Positions 9,760-17,934 of a stretch of DNA of 64,000 nt are shown piece after piece (positions within the stretch are counted from its first letter, which is position 1; every line of letters starts with the position of its first letter). The translations under genes and the position numbers were made by a program. The notes beneath the pieces are model-generated. The model ran no database searches. It was not told the origin of the DNA and worked only from the letters and a program-made list of their open reading frames with translations. The DNA is from an uncultured Flavobacteriales bacterium (GTDB lineage Bacteria; Bacteroidota; Bacteroidia; Flavobacteriales_D; Parvicellaceae). Where the stretch lies: assembly GCA_943788755.1 (NCBI GenBank), contig CALSRM010000003.1, positions 1,178,001-1,242,000 on the forward strand, in the 5' to 3' direction.

Positions 9760-10146
9760 GTGAGGAATAAAGCCGGAAATAATAAAGAGGGTATGGTTAA
9801 GAAAAAGAGAGTGTCTCTTCCTCTTAAGGGTCTTGTCTCTGGAGATATGTTTTCCAAAGGTGTGGTGACAAAAAACCTTTCTTTCCTGCTGTTTATTGCT
9901 TTGTTGATGTTGATGTATATCGGGTATGGATACTATGTTGATAATACGGTAAGAAAAGTGGTTAAGGAAGAGCGAATAGAGGGTGATTTGTATTCCGAGT
10001 TACAATCATTAATGGAGGTGTATGATCAGGAAAGTTTACGGAGTAAGGTCGCTAATGAGGTCACGGTTTCAAGTTTATTTGAGACCAAAGATCCTCCAAG
10101 AGTAGTGCTGGTAGAAAATAATTTTTATAACGAAAGTGCAGAATAA
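9760..10146 (+). CDS. ftsL: FtsL-like divisome membrane protein
   Basis: A 128-residue bitopic membrane protein in the position always held by ftsL in dcw clusters, between rsmH and ftsI. It has a basic cytoplasmic N-terminus, one hydrophobic helix (LSFLLFIALLMLMYIGYGYY, about residues 39-58) and a periplasmic part with a heptad-like pattern, as expected for a protein that pairs with a DivIC/FtsB partner. Sequence conservation in this family is low, so position and topology carry the call. The start GTG 9760 follows the rsmH stop directly. The 3-prime end overlaps the ftsI start by 11 bases. Confidence 0.85.
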   Translation: MRNKAGNNKEGMVKKKRVSLPLKGLVSGDMFSKGVVTKNLSFLLFIALLMLMYIGYGYYVDNTVRKVVKEERIEGDLYSELQSLMEVYDQESLRSKVANEVTVSSLFETKDPPRVVLVENNFYNESAE

Positions 10147-12234
10147 GAAAGAGTCCATAGTGAGAGTTTATCTCGTGTACATAGCGATGCTACTGTTTGC
10201 TATATTGGTTGTGGTGCAGATCATACGCGTTCAGTTTGTTGAGGGTGTAGAATTGAAGCATGAGGCAGAGACAATGACTTTGTCAATGCGAACAATAGAA
10301 GCTCCGCGAGGCAATATTTATGCTGATAATGATCGTAAGACTTCGTTGGCGTTGTCTGTTCCTCGGTATAGAGTTTATATGGATCTTAATGACTGTAGGG
10401 AACCTTGATTTCGAAGCAGGTGTTGGCGCGTTGTCTGATAGTTTAGCTAGTTTGTTTAATACAAAAACAGCTTCTCAGTGGGAGATGGAGCTTCGAGACA
10501 AGAAGTATGTAGATAGTAGTCAGTATCATTTCATCAAATCCAGAATTCGTAATGAGCAATTAGTTCGGCTAAGGGAGTTTCCAATTTTTAAATTAGGAAA
10601 ATACCGAGGAGGGTATATAGAGACAAGTGAAAATAAAAGAGTAAAGCCATACGAAATATTGGCTTCAAGGACTATTGGGAGAGTTAAAGAAGTGAAGAGG
10701 TGAAGATTCCGTATATGTAGGATTAGAGGGGTCGTTTAATGAGTATTTAAGAGGTGTTGATGGTGAGATGTTGATGAAGAAAATTGAGGGTAGCTTATGG
10801 AAACCGATTCAAAGTGATTATTCTCAAGAGCCCGTTCCAGGGATGGATGTATATACTTCTATAGATATTGATTTACAAGATGTGGCAGAGCGAGCTCTTT
10901 TGAAACAAATGAAAAATCAAGATGCTTTAAATGGTTGTGTTGTGTTGATGGAGGTTGAAACCGGTTACGTTAAAGCAATTGCAAACATTACGCAGGATAC
11001 TGCAAAGGGAACTTTTAATGAAGCAAGAAATTTAGCTGTGTGGCAAGCTTCTGAACCTGGGTCGACATTTAAGTTGGCTTCTTTAATGGTAGCTCTGGAT
11101 GATGGGAAAGTTCGGATAACGGATAGTGTGAACATTAAATACAGGTACCCATATTTCGATCGGGTTTTACGCGATGATCACGCTATTCCGGGTAAATATA
11201 CAGTCCAGTATGCTTTTGAGAAATCGTCTAATGTTATTTCTCAAATCATATACGATGCCTATCGCTCAAACCCTCAAGAATATGTGGATGGATTGAAAGA
11301 TATAGGTCTTCATAAAAAATTGGGAGTAGATATAAAAGGAGAAACTAGTCCATATATTAAAGATGCAAATGATTCAACTTTTTGGGGAGCTTCTCATGCT
11401 TGGATGGCAATTGGTTATGAAGTTTTGTTAACCCCTTTGCAGATGTTGTCTCTTTATAATGCCGTAGCAAATGATGGAAAAATGATGAAGCCTCAGTTTG
11501 TCAAAGAGGTGCGAAGTGGCGATGAGGTTGTTGAAGTTTTTAGTCCGATTGTATTAAATGAACAGGTGTGTTCTCCTGAAACAAACAAAATATTAAAAGG
11601 TTTGTTGGAGGGGGTTGTTGAGCGAGGAACAGCTAAAAACATTCGAGCTAGAGGTTTTAAGATAGCTGGCAAAACAGGTACTGCAAAAATTGCTAAGAAC
11701 GGTGGTTATGGGAAGAAATATCAAGCTTCTTTTTGTGGGTATTTCCCTGCTGACAATCCTAAATATTCATGCATAGTTGTTATTCAAGGTCCGACAAATC
11801 AAATATATGGTTCTGTAGTGTCCGGTACTGTTTTTAAGGAGATTGCGGATAAAGTTTACGCGGGTAGCTTGGAGAATTCAAAGGAGCCGGAATTAGTTTT
11901 AGATGAGATGAATTATCCGTATTCGAAGCATGGAAGTAAAAGCGAAACTAAAGCAGTAATGGGAAAGATGAGAGTTGAGATGCATGATGGAGCAGCGGAT
12001 TCTGATTGGGTGGTGACCAAAACCCATTTAGATAATGTGGTTTTACAAAACAGAATTATTAAAAAAGGTCAAATGCCAAATGTTATGGGAATGGGCTTGC
12101 AAGATGCTTTGTATTTATTGGAGTCACAAGGCTTAACAGTGAGAATAAACGGTAGTGGGATTGTTAAGAATCAATCGGTTATTCCTGGGAGCGAAATTTT
12201 TAAAAGACAATTAGTAACAATTGAATTGATATAA
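10136..12234 (+). CDS. ftsI: Septal peptidoglycan transpeptidase FtsI (PBP3) with PASTA domain, frameshifted
   Basis: Class B penicillin-binding protein that crosslinks septal peptidoglycan. A single N-terminal membrane helix (VYLVYIAMLLFAILVVV) is followed by the dimerisation/pedestal domain and the transpeptidase domain with all three motifs: SxxK in EPGSTFKLAS near 11050-11080, SxN in KSSNVIS near 11225, and KTG in GKTGTAK near 11670. One PASTA domain ends the protein (MPNVMGMGLQDALYLLESQGL). Two frameshifts interrupt the pedestal domain, near 10385-10405 (after VYMDLNDC) and near 10695-10710 (after IGRVKE). The downstream frame rejoins as DSVYVGLEGSFNEYLRGVDGE. An essential gene broken twice points to sequence error. 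Start is GTG 10136, within ftsL. Confidence 0.9.
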
Positions 12235-13697
12235 TGAAACTGCTGAAAGAGATAATATATGGGGTTGGAATTGTAGATGTAAAAGGGACTACAAATATTG
12301 CTGTTGAACATGTTGCCTGTGATTCTAGAAAAGTGGTTTCATATACAATGTTTGTTGCGTTGCGAGGAACGCAGGTTGATGGTCATGATTATATCAGTAA
12401 GGCGATAAAGGAAGGTGCGTTAAGTATTGTTTGTGAGGAATTTCCTGAGGAAATTGATGAAAATGTAACGTACATAAAGGTGGATGATTCAGCTCAAGCG
12501 CTTGGTGTTGTTGCTGCAAATTTTTATGAGAATCCTTCAGATAAATTAAAGTTAATTGGAGTTACAGGAACCAACGGAAAAACGACATCTGTAACACTTA
12601 TGTATGACCTTTTTAGGATGTTAGGATATAAGGTTGGTTTAATTTCAACAGTCGTTAATAAAATTCATACAGAAAAAGTTGATTCTACGCATACCACACC
12701 AAATGCACTTGACTTAAACGAGCTACTAAGTCGCATGGTGCAGAAGGGGTGTTTGTATTGTTTTATGGAGGTAAGTTCACATGCTGTTGATCAAAAGAGA
12801 ATTGCAGGTGTCAATTTTGCAGGAGGTGTATTTACAAATATTACGCATGACCATTTAGATTATCACAAAACGTTCGACAACTATTTAGTTGCTAAAAAAA
12901 CATTTTTTGATGCTCTTCCAAAGAGAGCTTTTGTTCTTGTCAATGTAGATCAAGAGCATGGTGATACAATGGTTCATGATACGCGGGCGAAAGTTCATAC
13001 TTACGGGATTAATTCAGTTGCTGATTTTAAAGCAAAAATTATAGATAATCGCTTTGATGGGCTTCAATTGGATATAGGAGGAAAGGAGTTATACACAAAA
13101 TTGATCGGTGGCTTCAATGCTTACAATGCTTTAGTAGCGTATGCAGTTGGTGTATTATTAGGCGAAGATGATTTGTCTGTTTTGGCAACTCTAAGTAATC
13201 TCAATCCGCCAGAAGGAAGGTTTCAACATATCTCTTCTCAGTCGGGAATAACTGCAATAGTGGATTATGCGCATACTCCTGATGCGTTGGAAAATGTTCT
13301 AAAAACGATCAAAGATATTCGAGTTGGAAATGAAATGGTAATCACTGTAGTTGGTTGTGGTGGAGATAGGGATGTTGCAAAAAGACCTTTGATGGCAGCG
13401 ATTGCTTGCAAATTGAGTGACCAAGTGATATTTACTTCAGACAATCCACGAAGTGAAGATCCAGAAAAAATCATTGAAGATATGAGGGTTGGGGTTCCAC
13501 CTGAGCATTATAAAAAAACACTCGCTATTACGGATAGAAAAGAGGCTATTAAAACAGCTTGCAGTATGGGGCATGCTGGCGATATTCTTTTAGTAGCGGG
13601 TAAAGGTCATGAGAAATACCAGATTGTTAAGGAGGAAACTTTGCCTTTTGATGATATGGAAACTTTAGTAGAAACGTTTAAAATATTAAGTAAATAA
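12234..13697 (+). CDS. murE: UDP-MurNAc-tripeptide synthetase (meso-DAP adding)
   Basis: Adds the third amino acid to UDP-MurNAc-L-Ala-D-Glu. The 487-residue protein has the P-loop TGTNGKT at 111-117 and, near residue 403, the DNPR motif ([10 protein letters not shown]) that selects meso-diaminopimelate over lysine. The wall should therefore be of the meso-DAP type. The ATG shares its A with the ftsI stop (TAATG), and the stop shares a base with the mraY start, so ftsI, murE and mraY are translationally coupled. Confidence 0.97.
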
Positions 13698-14926
13698 TGT
13701 TATATCACTTATTCGAAGGTTTAGATTTTCCCGGTGCTGGTTTATTCAGTTACATCTCTTTTAGAGCAGGAATGGCATTGTTGGTGTCGTTGATTATATC
13801 CATGATGTTTGGAGGGAAGCTAATAGCAATGCTGCAAAGAAAACAAGTTGGTGAGTCTATTCGCGATCTAGGCCTGGAAGGTCAAAGTGAAAAAGCAGGA
13901 ACCCCAACGATGGGTGGGTTAATTATTCTTGGAGCAATTTTAATTCCAACGCTTCTTTTTGCTGAACTTGATAATATTTACACATTAACAATGGTGCTGG
14001 CTACCGTTTGGTTAGGTTTTATTGGTTTTATAGATGATTACATTAAAGTTTTTAAGAAGAATAAAGCTGGATTAGCTGGGAAGTTTAAAGTTATCGGGCA
14101 AGTTGGCGTTGGAATTATTGTAGGGTCATTGCTTTATTTTAGTGAAGATGTGGTGGTGATGGAAAAAGTCATTGATAGCGAAAAATCAGAATCTTTAGAG
14201 TTCAATCAACAGGCGGAATGTGATATCGATGGAGATGTGACTTATTATCACTGGGAAGAGAAAAAAGCTACAACTACCACTATCCCTTTCATCAAAAATA
14301 ATGAGTTCGACTACAAATGGTTTGGTTTAGGAAAGTACACCTGGTTGCTTTACATCTTCATTGTAATCATTATTGTTGTTAATGTTTCAAATGGAGCAAA
14401 TCTAACAGATGGGATTGATGGTTTAGCAACCGGTACTTCAGCAATAATTGGAGTAACACTAGCCATATTTGCATACCTGTCAGGTAATGCAATATTCGCA
14501 GATTATCTAAATATAATGTATATCCCAAATTCGGGAGAACTTGTAATTTTTATCAGTGCTTTTATTGGAGCGTGTATTGGGTTTCTTTGGTACAATTCCT
14601 ACCCTGCAAAAGTTTTTATGGGCGATACAGGTAGTTTGGCTCTAGGTGGTATTATAGCAACATTTGCTATTGCTATTCGAAAAGAATTATTGATTCCAAT
14701 ATTCTGTGGAATCTTCTTAATAGAAAATTTATCGGTAATGATTCAGGTGGGTTGGTTCAAATACACTAAGAAAAGACATGGAGAAGGGAAGCGAGTTTTC
14801 CTAATGGCTCCATTACATCACCATTATCAGAAAAAAGGAATGCATGAGTCAAAAATTGTTGCGCGCTTTTGGATTATAGGGATCATGTTGGCGGCATTAT
14901 CAATTGTAACGCTCAAGCTGAGATAG
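13697..14926 (+). CDS. mraY: Phospho-MurNAc-pentapeptide transferase MraY
   Basis: Polytopic inner-membrane enzyme that makes lipid I from UDP-MurNAc-pentapeptide and undecaprenyl phosphate. Visible family motifs are [20 protein letters not shown] (catalytic Asp pair, near residues 110-118), [28 protein letters not shown] near residue 311 and the His-rich [11 protein letters not shown]. At 409 residues it is longer than the Escherichia coli enzyme because of a soluble loop (roughly residues 152-200) between membrane helices, common in Bacteroidota MraY. Intact. Confidence 0.97.
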
Positions 14927-16269
14927 TGAATGGAGGTGGGAAAATAGTAGTTCTCGGAGCAGGAGAGAGTGGCGTCGGTACAGCGATTTTAGCCCAACAA
15001 AAAGGGTTTAAGGTTTTTGTTTCTGACAAAGGAGAAATTAAGGAGGAGTACAAAAAAGTTCTTTTACATAATGAAATCGATTGGGAAGAGGGTAGTCATA
15101 CACTTTCCAGAATAATGGATGCAGATGAGGTGGTAAAAAGTCCCGGTATTCCAGATACGATTCAGTTAATTATAGGCCTTAAAGAAAAAGGTGTTTCTGT
15201 AGTTTCTGAAATTGAGTTTGCGGCCAGATATACTGACGCAAAATTGATTTGTATTACTGGAAGTAATGGGAAAACTACTACAACTTTAATGACATATCAT
15301 ATCATGTCTAATGCAGGCTTGAATGTAGCTGTTGCAGGAAATATTGGTGAAAGTTTTGCAAAACTCGTAGCTGATAATAAGCATGATTATTATGTGCTAG
15401 AATTAAGCAGCTTCCAATTGGATGGGATGTTCAACTTCAAAGCAAATATTGCAATGCTGTTAAATATTACTCCTGATCACCTCGATCGATATGATAACGA
15501 CATGCAGAAGTATGTTGAAAGCAAATTAAGAATCCTTCAAAATCAGACAGAAGAAGATGTTCTCATCTACAATGCAGATGATGAAGTGATTGTAAAAGAA
15601 TTGCAAAAAAGAAAAATCAAGGCTCGAATGCTTCCTTTTTCAATGGAACGGAAAGTATCGGAAGGAGCTTATATAGTAAACGAACAACTAAGCATAAATA
15701 TAAACAACAAACAAACAACTATGAGTATACACGAACTAGCACAACAGGGTAAGCATAATGCTTACAATTCTATGGCTTCAGGTATTGCAGGGAAAGTACT
15801 TGAAATTAGAAAAGAGATTATTAGGGACAGTTTATCTGACTTTCAAAATGTAGAGCACCGGCTTGAGTTTGTTGCAGAGGTCCACGGAATTGAGTTTATC
15901 AATGACTCAAAAGCAACCAATGTAAATTCTACATGGTATGCTTTAGAGAGCATGCAGAAACCAACTATTTGGATTGCAGGTGGTGTTGATAAAGGGAATG
16001 ATTATGAATTCTTATCAGGACTGGTAAAGCAAAAGGTAGTAGGAATGGTTTGCCTTGGAAAAGACAATTCAAAATTACACAATGCTTTTGATGGGATTGT
16101 TGATGAAATCTGGGATGCGTCGAATGCAAATGAAGCAGTAAGACTTGCCTATCGTTTAGCGAAAAAAGGATACGCAGTATTGCTGTCTCCAGCTTGCGCT
16201 AGTTTCGATTTGTTCGAGAATTACGAGGAAAGAGGTAACTCTTTTAAGAAAGCGGTAAGGTCTTTATAA
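14926..16269 (+). CDS. murD: UDP-MurNAc-L-alanine:D-glutamate ligase
   Basis: Adds D-glutamate to UDP-MurNAc-L-Ala. I chose GTG 14926, which overlaps the mraY stop by one base (TAGTG) and gives 447 residues, the usual length; an in-frame TTG at 14869 would add 19 residues lying inside mraY. The N-terminal Rossmann-like GAGESGVG, the P-loop TGSNGKTTTT near 110, the NDSKAT block near 326 and the C-terminal SPACASFD...RGNSFK block near 420 are all present. The Lys of GGVDKGNDY (D-Glu binding in the E. coli enzyme) is kept. The C-terminal domain has a stand-alone copy immediately downstream. Confidence 0.96.
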   Translation: MNGGGKIVVLGAGESGVGTAILAQQKGFKVFVSDKGEIKEEYKKVLLHNEIDWEEGSHTLSRIMDADEVVKSPGIPDTIQLIIGLKEKGVSVVSEIEFAARYTDAKLICITGSNGKTTTTLMTYHIMSNAGLNVAVAGNIGESFAKLVADNKHDYYVLELSSFQLDGMFNFKANIAMLLNITPDHLDRYDNDMQKYVESKLRILQNQTEEDVLIYNADDEVIVKELQKRKIKARMLPFSMERKVSEGAYIVNEQLSININNKQTTMSIHELAQQGKHNAYNSMASGIAGKVLEIRKEIIRDSLSDFQNVEHRLEFVAEVHGIEFINDSKATNVNSTWYALESMQKPTIWIAGGVDKGNDYEFLSGLVKQKVVGMVCLGKDNSKLHNAFDGIVDEIWDASNANEAVRLAYRLAKKGYAVLLSPACASFDLFENYEERGNSFKKAVRSL

Positions 16270-16299: not shown

Positions 16300-16788
16300 A
16301 TGGAACAGAATAAAATTAAAAGTCTAAAAGCGCGAATGCTTGAAGCTAGAAAAAATAGTATAAATCTTTTTTCAGATATAGGGCATAGGTTAGAGTCTGT
16401 AGGTTTAAAAAATGGAGTAGAATGGATCAATGATTCAAAAGCCACTGATATAGACTCTTCTTACTATTCTTTAGAGTTAATGGAGAAACCTGTTATATGG
16501 ATAGTAGGAGCATCTGATGTTATACGTGATTATACAGTGTTTGATAAACTGGTGCGATACAAAGTAAAAAAAGTCATTTGCTTTGGTTCTTACGAGACGC
16601 AAATAAAATATACGTTTGCTGGGATTACAGAAGGATATGCGCATAAAGAAACATTGGAAGATGCCGTGTCGACTGCAGCAGAGTGGTCTAAAGAAGGTGA
16701 TGTTGTGTTGTTCTCACCTGCTTGTTCTAGTTTTGATTTGTATGATGATTACAAACAAAGAGGAGAGCATTTCAAATCGTTGATTTAG
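16300..16788 (+). CDS. Stand-alone paralogue of the MurD C-terminal domain
   Basis: A 162-residue protein between murD and ftsW that matches only the last third of MurD (Mur ligase domain 3, the D-glutamate side). Shared with the neighbouring MurD are HRLE (near residue 29), WINDSKAT (near 42-49), KPVIWI, and SPACSSFDLYDDYKQRGEHFK (near 139-159). The UDP-MurNAc-binding domain and the P-loop domain are absent, so it cannot be a ligase alone. The MurD lysine in GGVDKGNDY is replaced (GASDVIRDY). I chose ATG 16300 over TTG 16294. It starts 30 bases after the murD stop and ends 15 bases before ftsW, so it is co-expressed. It is likely a duplication product; its role is unknown (glutamate sensing or modulation of MurD would be guesses). 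Confidence 0.85.
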   Translation: MEQNKIKSLKARMLEARKNSINLFSDIGHRLESVGLKNGVEWINDSKATDIDSSYYSLELMEKPVIWIVGASDVIRDYTVFDKLVRYKVKKVICFGSYETQIKYTFAGITEGYAHKETLEDAVSTAAEWSKEGDVVLFSPACSSFDLYDDYKQRGEHFKSLI

Positions 16789-16803: not shown

Positions 16804-17934
16804 ATGCAATTATCAATCGATAAATATCTAAAAGGTGATAAGGCTATTTGGTCTATTATTATATTGTTGTCAATTATGTCTGCTATTATGGCCTATAGCG
16901 CTAGTGCAAATATGGCCTATAGGTTAACAGACGGAGATGCAATTCCTTTCTTTTTTAGGCATCTTGTTATGTTAGTGCTGGGTATTGTGACGATTATTTA
17001 TTTGCAACATTTTGAGTTTCGATATTTTTCCAGATTATCTCAGTTGGGTGTTTGGGTTGCTGCTGCTTTATTGCTTGTTACGTTAATTTTTGGTAGAAAT
17101 ATTAATTCTGCTCAAAGGTGGATTATGGGCTTTCAACCTTCTGATTTCGCTAAAATTATTTTGGTTATTTATGTTGCCAGAATGCTGGCTAAGAATAAAG
17201 GTAAAATCAAAAATTTTAAAGAAGGTTTGGTGCCGATTTTAATACCAATAGGTGGCATATGTCTCCTAATATTACCCGCTGATTTTTCTACTGCTGCTAT
17301 GTTATTGACTGTTTGCTTTGCCCTTTTGTTTGTTGGAGGGGTTGCAATAAAACATTTATTAGCTGTGTTAGGAGGTGCCATTGGATTGCTTATGTTGTTG
17401 ATCGCTTTAAACCATGTTGCGCCTGGTCTTCTTCCTAGAGTTAATACTTGGGAACAGCGGATATTGGGGTATAGTTCTGGTTCTGCAGACGAAAATTATC
17501 AAGCGCAAAGAGCGAAAATTGCTGTCGCAAATGGAGGTGTATGGGGGAATGGTCCCGGTAACGGAACTATTAAAAACGAATTATATTCCGCGCAGTCTGA
17601 TTTTGTTTATGCTTCAATTATTGAAGATTATGGGTCTCTTTTCGGTGGGTTAATAATGTTGTTACTCTACCTTATGTTTCTATTTCGGTCCATAAAAATA
17701 ATGACGAAAACGAGCAGCTCCTTTGGGGGGTATCTTGCCTTTGGCTTAAGTTTTCTGTTAGTGTTCCAAGCATTAATTAATATGGGGGTTGGTGTTAATC
17801 TTTTGCCTGTTACCGGTCAACCATTGCCATTAATTAGTATGGGGGGAACATCTATTTTATTTACCTGTGTTTCTATCGGGATAATATTAAATATAAGTCG
17901 AACAGTTTACAGAGAAGAGGAAACTGAAGGATGA
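16804..17934 (+). CDS. ftsW: Lipid II glycosyltransferase FtsW (SEDS family)
   Basis: SEDS-family membrane protein that polymerises septal glycan strands together with FtsI. The 376-residue protein shows about ten hydrophobic segments and the family signatures NSAQRWIMGFQPSDFAKI near residues 100-117, NYQAQRAKIAVANGGVWGNGPG near 232-253, and the C-terminal NLLPVTGQPLPLISMGGTS block. The catalytic Asp region of SEDS proteins is represented by AQSDFVYASIIEDYG. The stop overlaps the murG ATG by 4 bases (ATGA). Confidence 0.96.
   Translation: MQLSIDKYLKGDKAIWSIIILLSIMSAIMAYSASANMAYRLTDGDAIPFFFRHLVMLVLGIVTIIYLQHFEFRYFSRLSQLGVWVAAALLLVTLIFGRNINSAQRWIMGFQPSDFAKIILVIYVARMLAKNKGKIKNFKEGLVPILIPIGGICLLILPADFSTAAMLLTVCFALLFVGGVAIKHLLAVLGGAIGLLMLLIALNHVAPGLLPRVNTWEQRILGYSSGSADENYQAQRAKIAVANGGVWGNGPGNGTIKNELYSAQSDFVYASIIEDYGSLFGGLIMLLLYLMFLFRSIKIMTKTSSSFGGYLAFGLSFLLVFQALINMGVGVNLLPVTGQPLPLISMGGTSILFTCVSIGIILNISRTVYREEETEG

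Follow-up and report, generated by a model that had tools for sequence, protein, structure and literature searches.

A Stand-Alone MurD Domain Between murD and ftsW

Within the window, as we term the whole 64,000-nucleotide stretch of DNA analyzed here, the dcw cluster contains an additional frame, hereafter X, which is separated by 30 bases from the end of murD and by 15 bases from the start of ftsW (Table 1). The frame is intact, with an ATG start and zero internal stops. A previous reading of this locus from its sequence only (the sequence-only reading) had described it as a separate MurD domain-3 protein lacking the P-loop and UDP-binding domains, and the open reading frame, Pfam, and TIGR01087 all agree with this description. 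Mur_ligase_C (PF02875) is the sole Pfam domain in X, with the profile matched over its entire length (positions 1–127 of 127) at 38.9 bits, above the gathering score of 28.4; the UDP-binding N-domain and the P-loop central domain are missing. The MurD equivalog model, TIGR01087, is matched only at positions 292–438 of 441 (E 5.5e-42), and the score of 144.4 bits lies below the curated whole-protein cut-off of 211.95 bits, such that X does not qualify as a MurD equivalog. Solved MurD structures align to X over the same region (E. coli MurD 292–431), and X shares ∼42% identity with the C-domain of the MurD in its own genome, where these two are the only domain-3 copies.

Table 1. Coordinates of X, its motifs, the neighboring dcw genes in the window, and the additional MurD C-domain copies found in other genomes.
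Feature	Coordinates	Strand	Remarks
mraY	13697..14926	+	dcw cluster gene upstream
murD	14929..16269	+	Source of the duplicated domain; TIGR01087 E 1.9e-122, positions 1-440 of 441
X	16300..16788	+	Stand-alone MurD domain-3 protein, 162 aa plus stop; Pfam and TIGR01087 profile matches; kept in relatives; dN/dS 0.03-0.10
HRLE motif of X	16384..16395	+	E. coli MurD H301-E304
NDSKAT motif of X	16429..16446	+	E. coli MurD N316-T321
GASDV of X	16507..16521	+	Replaces GGxDK; K348 lysine gone
SPACSSFD motif of X	16714..16737	+	E. coli MurD S410-D417
ftsW	16804..17934	+	Immediately 3' of X in all ancestral-type X loci read
Extra MurD C-domain copies	L225:1315-1965, L226:1426-1974, L227:1366-1983		Coordinates on reverse-complemented strand

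In E. coli MurD numbering, X retains H301, R302, E304, N316–T321, S410, P411, S415, R425, G426, and F429, and thereby keeps the RG..F motif in addition to HRLE, NDSKAT, and SPACSSFD. The loss of the GGxDK lysine, to which the sequence-only reading had drawn attention, is evident from the replacement of the GGVDK of MurD by GASDV, with valine at the equivalent of K348, the lysine that contacts D-glutamate. Judged from this anatomy, with neither a UDP-binding nor a P-loop domain, catalysis by X alone is excluded. The alternative that X is the frameshift-split remnant of a second murD, raised at the outset as a way in which the initial description could fail, was ruled out: the adjoining murD is full-length and retains every motif (its open reading frame as listed begins further upstream, at TTG 14869), and X carries no trace of domains 1–2.

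Elsewhere in the window, an FtsI/PBP frame (10136–12234) is split over three frames (10136–10408, 10320–10703, and 10768–12234) in a pattern of two single-base indels; as read from the frames alone, an assembly error is a likelier explanation than a real split, because the gene is essential.

Distribution, Origin, and Selection

X is present in 33 of 37 genomes from the family to which the window belongs (f1, own genome included), and the four genomes without it are 57–82% complete or badly fragmented; the absence or decay in relatives that would have spoken against the initial description was therefore not observed. In G022, also of this family, X contains an in-frame TAA (L016:1501–1983), which may represent decay or a sequencing error. 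In the Bacteroidia sample, about 68 of 296 genomes have at least two matches to the X profile and roughly 65 carry X, the three special cases being G385 (in which contig ends truncate a MurD), G427, and G433. No stand-alone copy was found among 89 genomes of Bacteroidota outside class Bacteroidia, the sole one with two matches (G221) apparently having a MurD truncated at the end of a contig.

Copy number and context vary among families. Two tandem copies of X lie between murD and ftsW in f2, f3, f4, and f7, and the second copy in f2, f3, and f7 (L067:3111–3638, L071:3178–3672, and L073) starts with a conserved basic motif, TIHKGKKSQ, that is absent in the first. An extra, strongly diverged stand-alone MurD C-domain occurs outside the dcw cluster and away from ftsW in f16, f52, and f56 (Table 1); its neighbor in f16 and f56 is an aldehyde dehydrogenase gene on the opposite strand. 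In G140, an unrelated small ORF occupies the place of X. Long open frames in f21 (572–868 aa) were considered as fusions that might reveal a partner and were ruled out, as they merely overlap mraY in a different reading frame.

In a tree of 199 C-domains, a comparison that the sequence-only reading had proposed, X groups apart from MurD, with 80 of 89 X sequences on one side of one branch, and constraining all ancestral-type X together gave a likelihood better than that of the free search (AU p 0.90). Because of both results, one old duplication is the simplest reading of the origin of X. It was followed by several losses, since the presence of X on the MurD and FtsW tree entails at least nine changes, five of which are forced by well supported branches. 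The window protein is a stand-alone domain 3, is encoded directly 5′ of ftsW, and groups apart from MurD, and these are the features by which we delimit X as a family of MurD C-domain paralogs. A further MurD domain-3 copy, from G433 (f53; 200 aa), adjoins a MurD at L230:6260–8264, keeps the lysine (GGLDK), and has no ftsW after it. This copy falls beside that MurD, its nearest relative, in the free tree (support 99), and a common grouping with X is not rejected when forced (AU p 0.52); it is apparently the product of a second, later duplication.

Within genera, the dN/dS of X (0.03–0.10) is close to that of MurD, and over 45 taxa the tree length of X is ∼3 times that of the MurD C-domain (26.1 vs. 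8.9). X is constrained, yet freer than the MurD enzyme. The original claim that X is kept by selection is borne out by this ratio and by homologs that are intact and widespread. A neutral leftover of the duplication, kept by chance, might be expected to show repeated losses and an in-frame stop such as that in G022, but it is scarcely credible here: frames are intact in dozens of families, the tree is compatible with a single old origin, and the selection data already contradict chance retention.

Conservation of the Fold and Decay of the Ligand Site

Residue retention was counted over 96 stand-alone domains, two of which are MurD fragments at contig ends. Among fold residues, S410–P411 are retained in 95–96 of these domains, N316 and G426 in 91 each, F429 in 89, and R425 in 85; D317 is retained in 87. 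Retention is 70/96 for R302, 63/96 for K319, and 73/96 for T321, with losses in several lineages, and K348 is found in only about six of 94 X proteins. The MurD proteins of the same genomes retain all residues compared. The pattern is that of a fold that is kept and a ligand site that is decaying.

Given the Mur_ligase_C fold and the NDSKAT motif kept in most lineages, X might be a small-molecule sensor that binds a nucleotide or UDP-MurNAc-peptide and signals the precursor level to the division machinery. We consider this very unlikely, as several clades show independent decay of the ligand-facing residues but not of the fold residues, and X is without an output domain. Binding of D-glutamate, which the sequence-only reading had offered as one possible role, is disfavored by the rarity of K348 and by the persistence of a lone C-domain in genomes without MurI and canonical MurD, described below.

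Gene Neighborhood and the Link to ftsW

In every ancestral-type locus with a readable next gene, ftsW lies directly 3′ of X, with a gap that reaches about 200–270 bp in f24. On the other side, murD is within about 100 bp of X in most genomes. In genus g8, murD and X are separated by an insertion of one or two lipoprotein genes and the X-ftsW junction is intact; the inserted genes (L056–L059) encode lipoprotein-like membrane proteins with a common N-terminal motif, C-S/A-S..VVHNGFLQKRKYxKGYxLS. In G104 (f52), X and ftsW are found behind ferritin and HPt genes, on a different contig from mraY and murD. These rearrangements, which amount to only about three independent events, favor a link of X to ftsW over one to murD.

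A Lone C-Domain in Genomes Without Canonical MurD

In four genomes of rumen Bacteroidales (G060–G063) and in G427 (f104), mraY is followed in the dcw cluster by a lone MurD C-domain of ∼180 aa and then by ftsW, with no murD in the cluster. The arrangement is rare, being found in one of 396 sampled Bacteroidia genomes in addition to the four rumen genomes. The full-length MurD of these organisms is encoded outside the dcw cluster and has glutamate at the D182 position and arginine at the K348 position, the residues that set the L-glutamate specificity of MurD2 (PMC8788868). MurI is absent from all five genomes (0/5), and a MurL-type protein is present in each of them, matching NF041275 with an E-value of 3e-76, below the Xanthomonas-specific cut-off of that model. 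In G427, MurL is fused to the MurD2-type ligase (L228:3264–5894); in the four rumen genomes (loci L078–L081 and L233–L238), it is separate, at 49–64% identity, and in two of these it is in pieces. The non-dcw MurD of all five thus combines both MurD2 residues with a MurL partner and the lack of MurI, and we predict that these organisms carry the MurD2/MurL (L-glutamate) route, a pathway that a review (PMC8788868) lists only for Proteobacteria and actinobacteria.

In the four rumen genomes, the dN/dS of the lone domain is about 0.02–0.10, and FtsW has changed more in these genomes than the domain has. The N-terminus of the lone domain (MTLESLAKQGREK...NLA) is similar to the last part of MurD domain 2 (MSIHELAQQGKHN..NSMA), and the AU test does not reject shared ancestry with X (p 0.94); the lone domain could be either a descendant of X or a truncated native MurD. 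With either origin, selection strongly maintains a MurD C-domain devoid of catalytic parts in genomes that lack canonical MurD and MurI.

Proposed Function

The loss of K348, the constraint on X, its linkage to ftsW, and the lone domain that persists without MurI and canonical murD are established here, as are the duplication and its age, and on this evidence as a whole catalysis and D-glutamate binding are disfavored and protein contact is favored. Our main reading, to which we assign a probability of roughly 0.4, is that X descends from the MurD C-domain, is catalytically dead, and serves through protein contact as an adaptor or regulator within the precursor/FtsW machinery. A tandem duplication that took place once, early in class Bacteroidia, would have given rise to X, which was then inherited vertically with several losses. 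X would act through protein-protein contact rather than through ligation or D-glutamate binding, most likely at the cytoplasmic-membrane complex that passes precursors from the Mur ligases via MraY and MurG towards FtsW. The domain probably had a docking role already within full MurD, in which case the duplication separated docking from catalysis. There are precedents for such an adaptor: MurG binds MurD, MurE, and MurF (PMC6420597), and the MurT C-domain is a docking face for GatD (PMC6085368).

Complexes with MurD or FtsW, for which the sequence-only reading had suggested structure prediction, were modeled with AF2 on the natural read-through frames MurD-X and X-FtsW, which served only as tethers. 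The outcome was partial, in that the parts fold well in both fusions and no confident docking is evident in either (pTM 0.65 for MurD-X and 0.69 for X-FtsW). Rate covariation of X with FtsW or other dcw genes yielded no significant positive partner (36 taxa, 69 branches), and no clear FtsW signature of X-bearing genomes emerged from a comparison in which some rows were mislabeled as X-negative.

The contact could also be with MurD itself, with which the sequence-only reading had suggested a mixed complex, X being a regulator or second subunit that docks in trans on the central (ATP) domain as a mimic of domain 3, and either competes with or stabilizes the C-domain of MurD. The proximity of X to murD in most genomes is in keeping with this, as is the retention of H301, R302, D317, and K319 (HRxE, NDSKAT) in most lineages while the D-glutamate lysine is lost. 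We nevertheless think it unlikely, as a stand-alone C-domain survives in genomes that have lost canonical MurD, several MurD-bearing lineages have lost R302 and K319 from X, the gene is linked more tightly to ftsW than to murD, and neither the MurD-X model nor rate covariation with MurD gives positive support. The adaptor reading has evidence against it as well. Operon inertia could explain the linkage to ftsW, because so few rearrangements are independent, and X is dispensable in some backgrounds, since it has been lost repeatedly; the X-FtsW model without docking, the lack of rate covariation, and the extra copies away from ftsW in f16, f52, and f56 also count against it.

A broader and more tentative proposal, which we hold to be somewhat less probable than the adaptor role itself, is that the MurD C-domain of Bacteroidia contributes to septal wall synthesis in a second way that does not depend on catalysis. 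This role would have been separated from the enzyme by the old duplication that produced X, separated again by a later duplication restricted to the f53 lineage, and kept alone when MurD2/MurL replaced MurD, making a dead MurD domain a functioning component on the FtsW side of the machinery.

Comparison With Known Systems

Few bacterial operons have been studied as thoroughly as the dcw cluster, and a conserved dcw protein that is widespread in class Bacteroidia nonetheless seems undescribed. No description of a stand-alone MurD C-domain was found in the literature searched, outside which subscription journals largely fall, and X matched no NCBIfam or Pfam model specific to the stand-alone form. 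The X family is new as a stand-alone protein, with an already known fold, Mur_ligase_C. Mur ligases are drug targets and have long been suspected of assembling with MurG and the division machinery; a lone MurD domain that outlives the enzyme would, if true, open the non-catalytic role of a Mur ligase to direct testing.

X is homologous to MurD domain 3 over its full length, and the HRLE, NDSKAT, SPAC, and RG motifs are common to both, but X is without the UDP-binding domain, the P-loop domain, and K348, and alone is no ligase. The folded part of X corresponds to PF02875, above the curated cut-off; to our knowledge, Mur_ligase_C is part of a larger ligase in the characterized enzymes, whereas in X it stands alone. 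In the lipid II amidotransferase MurT/GatD, the Mur-type C-domain of MurT is likewise a protein docking surface, through helices that contact GatD (PMC6085368), although MurT is catalytic and has a central ATP domain, neither of which applies to X, and no GatD partner is encoded beside X. The MurD2/MurL pathway (PMC8788868) is represented by MurD2-type and MurL-type proteins in the genomes in which the lone C-domain has outlived canonical MurD, but X is distinct from MurD2, being a domain of its own that is encoded in the dcw cluster.
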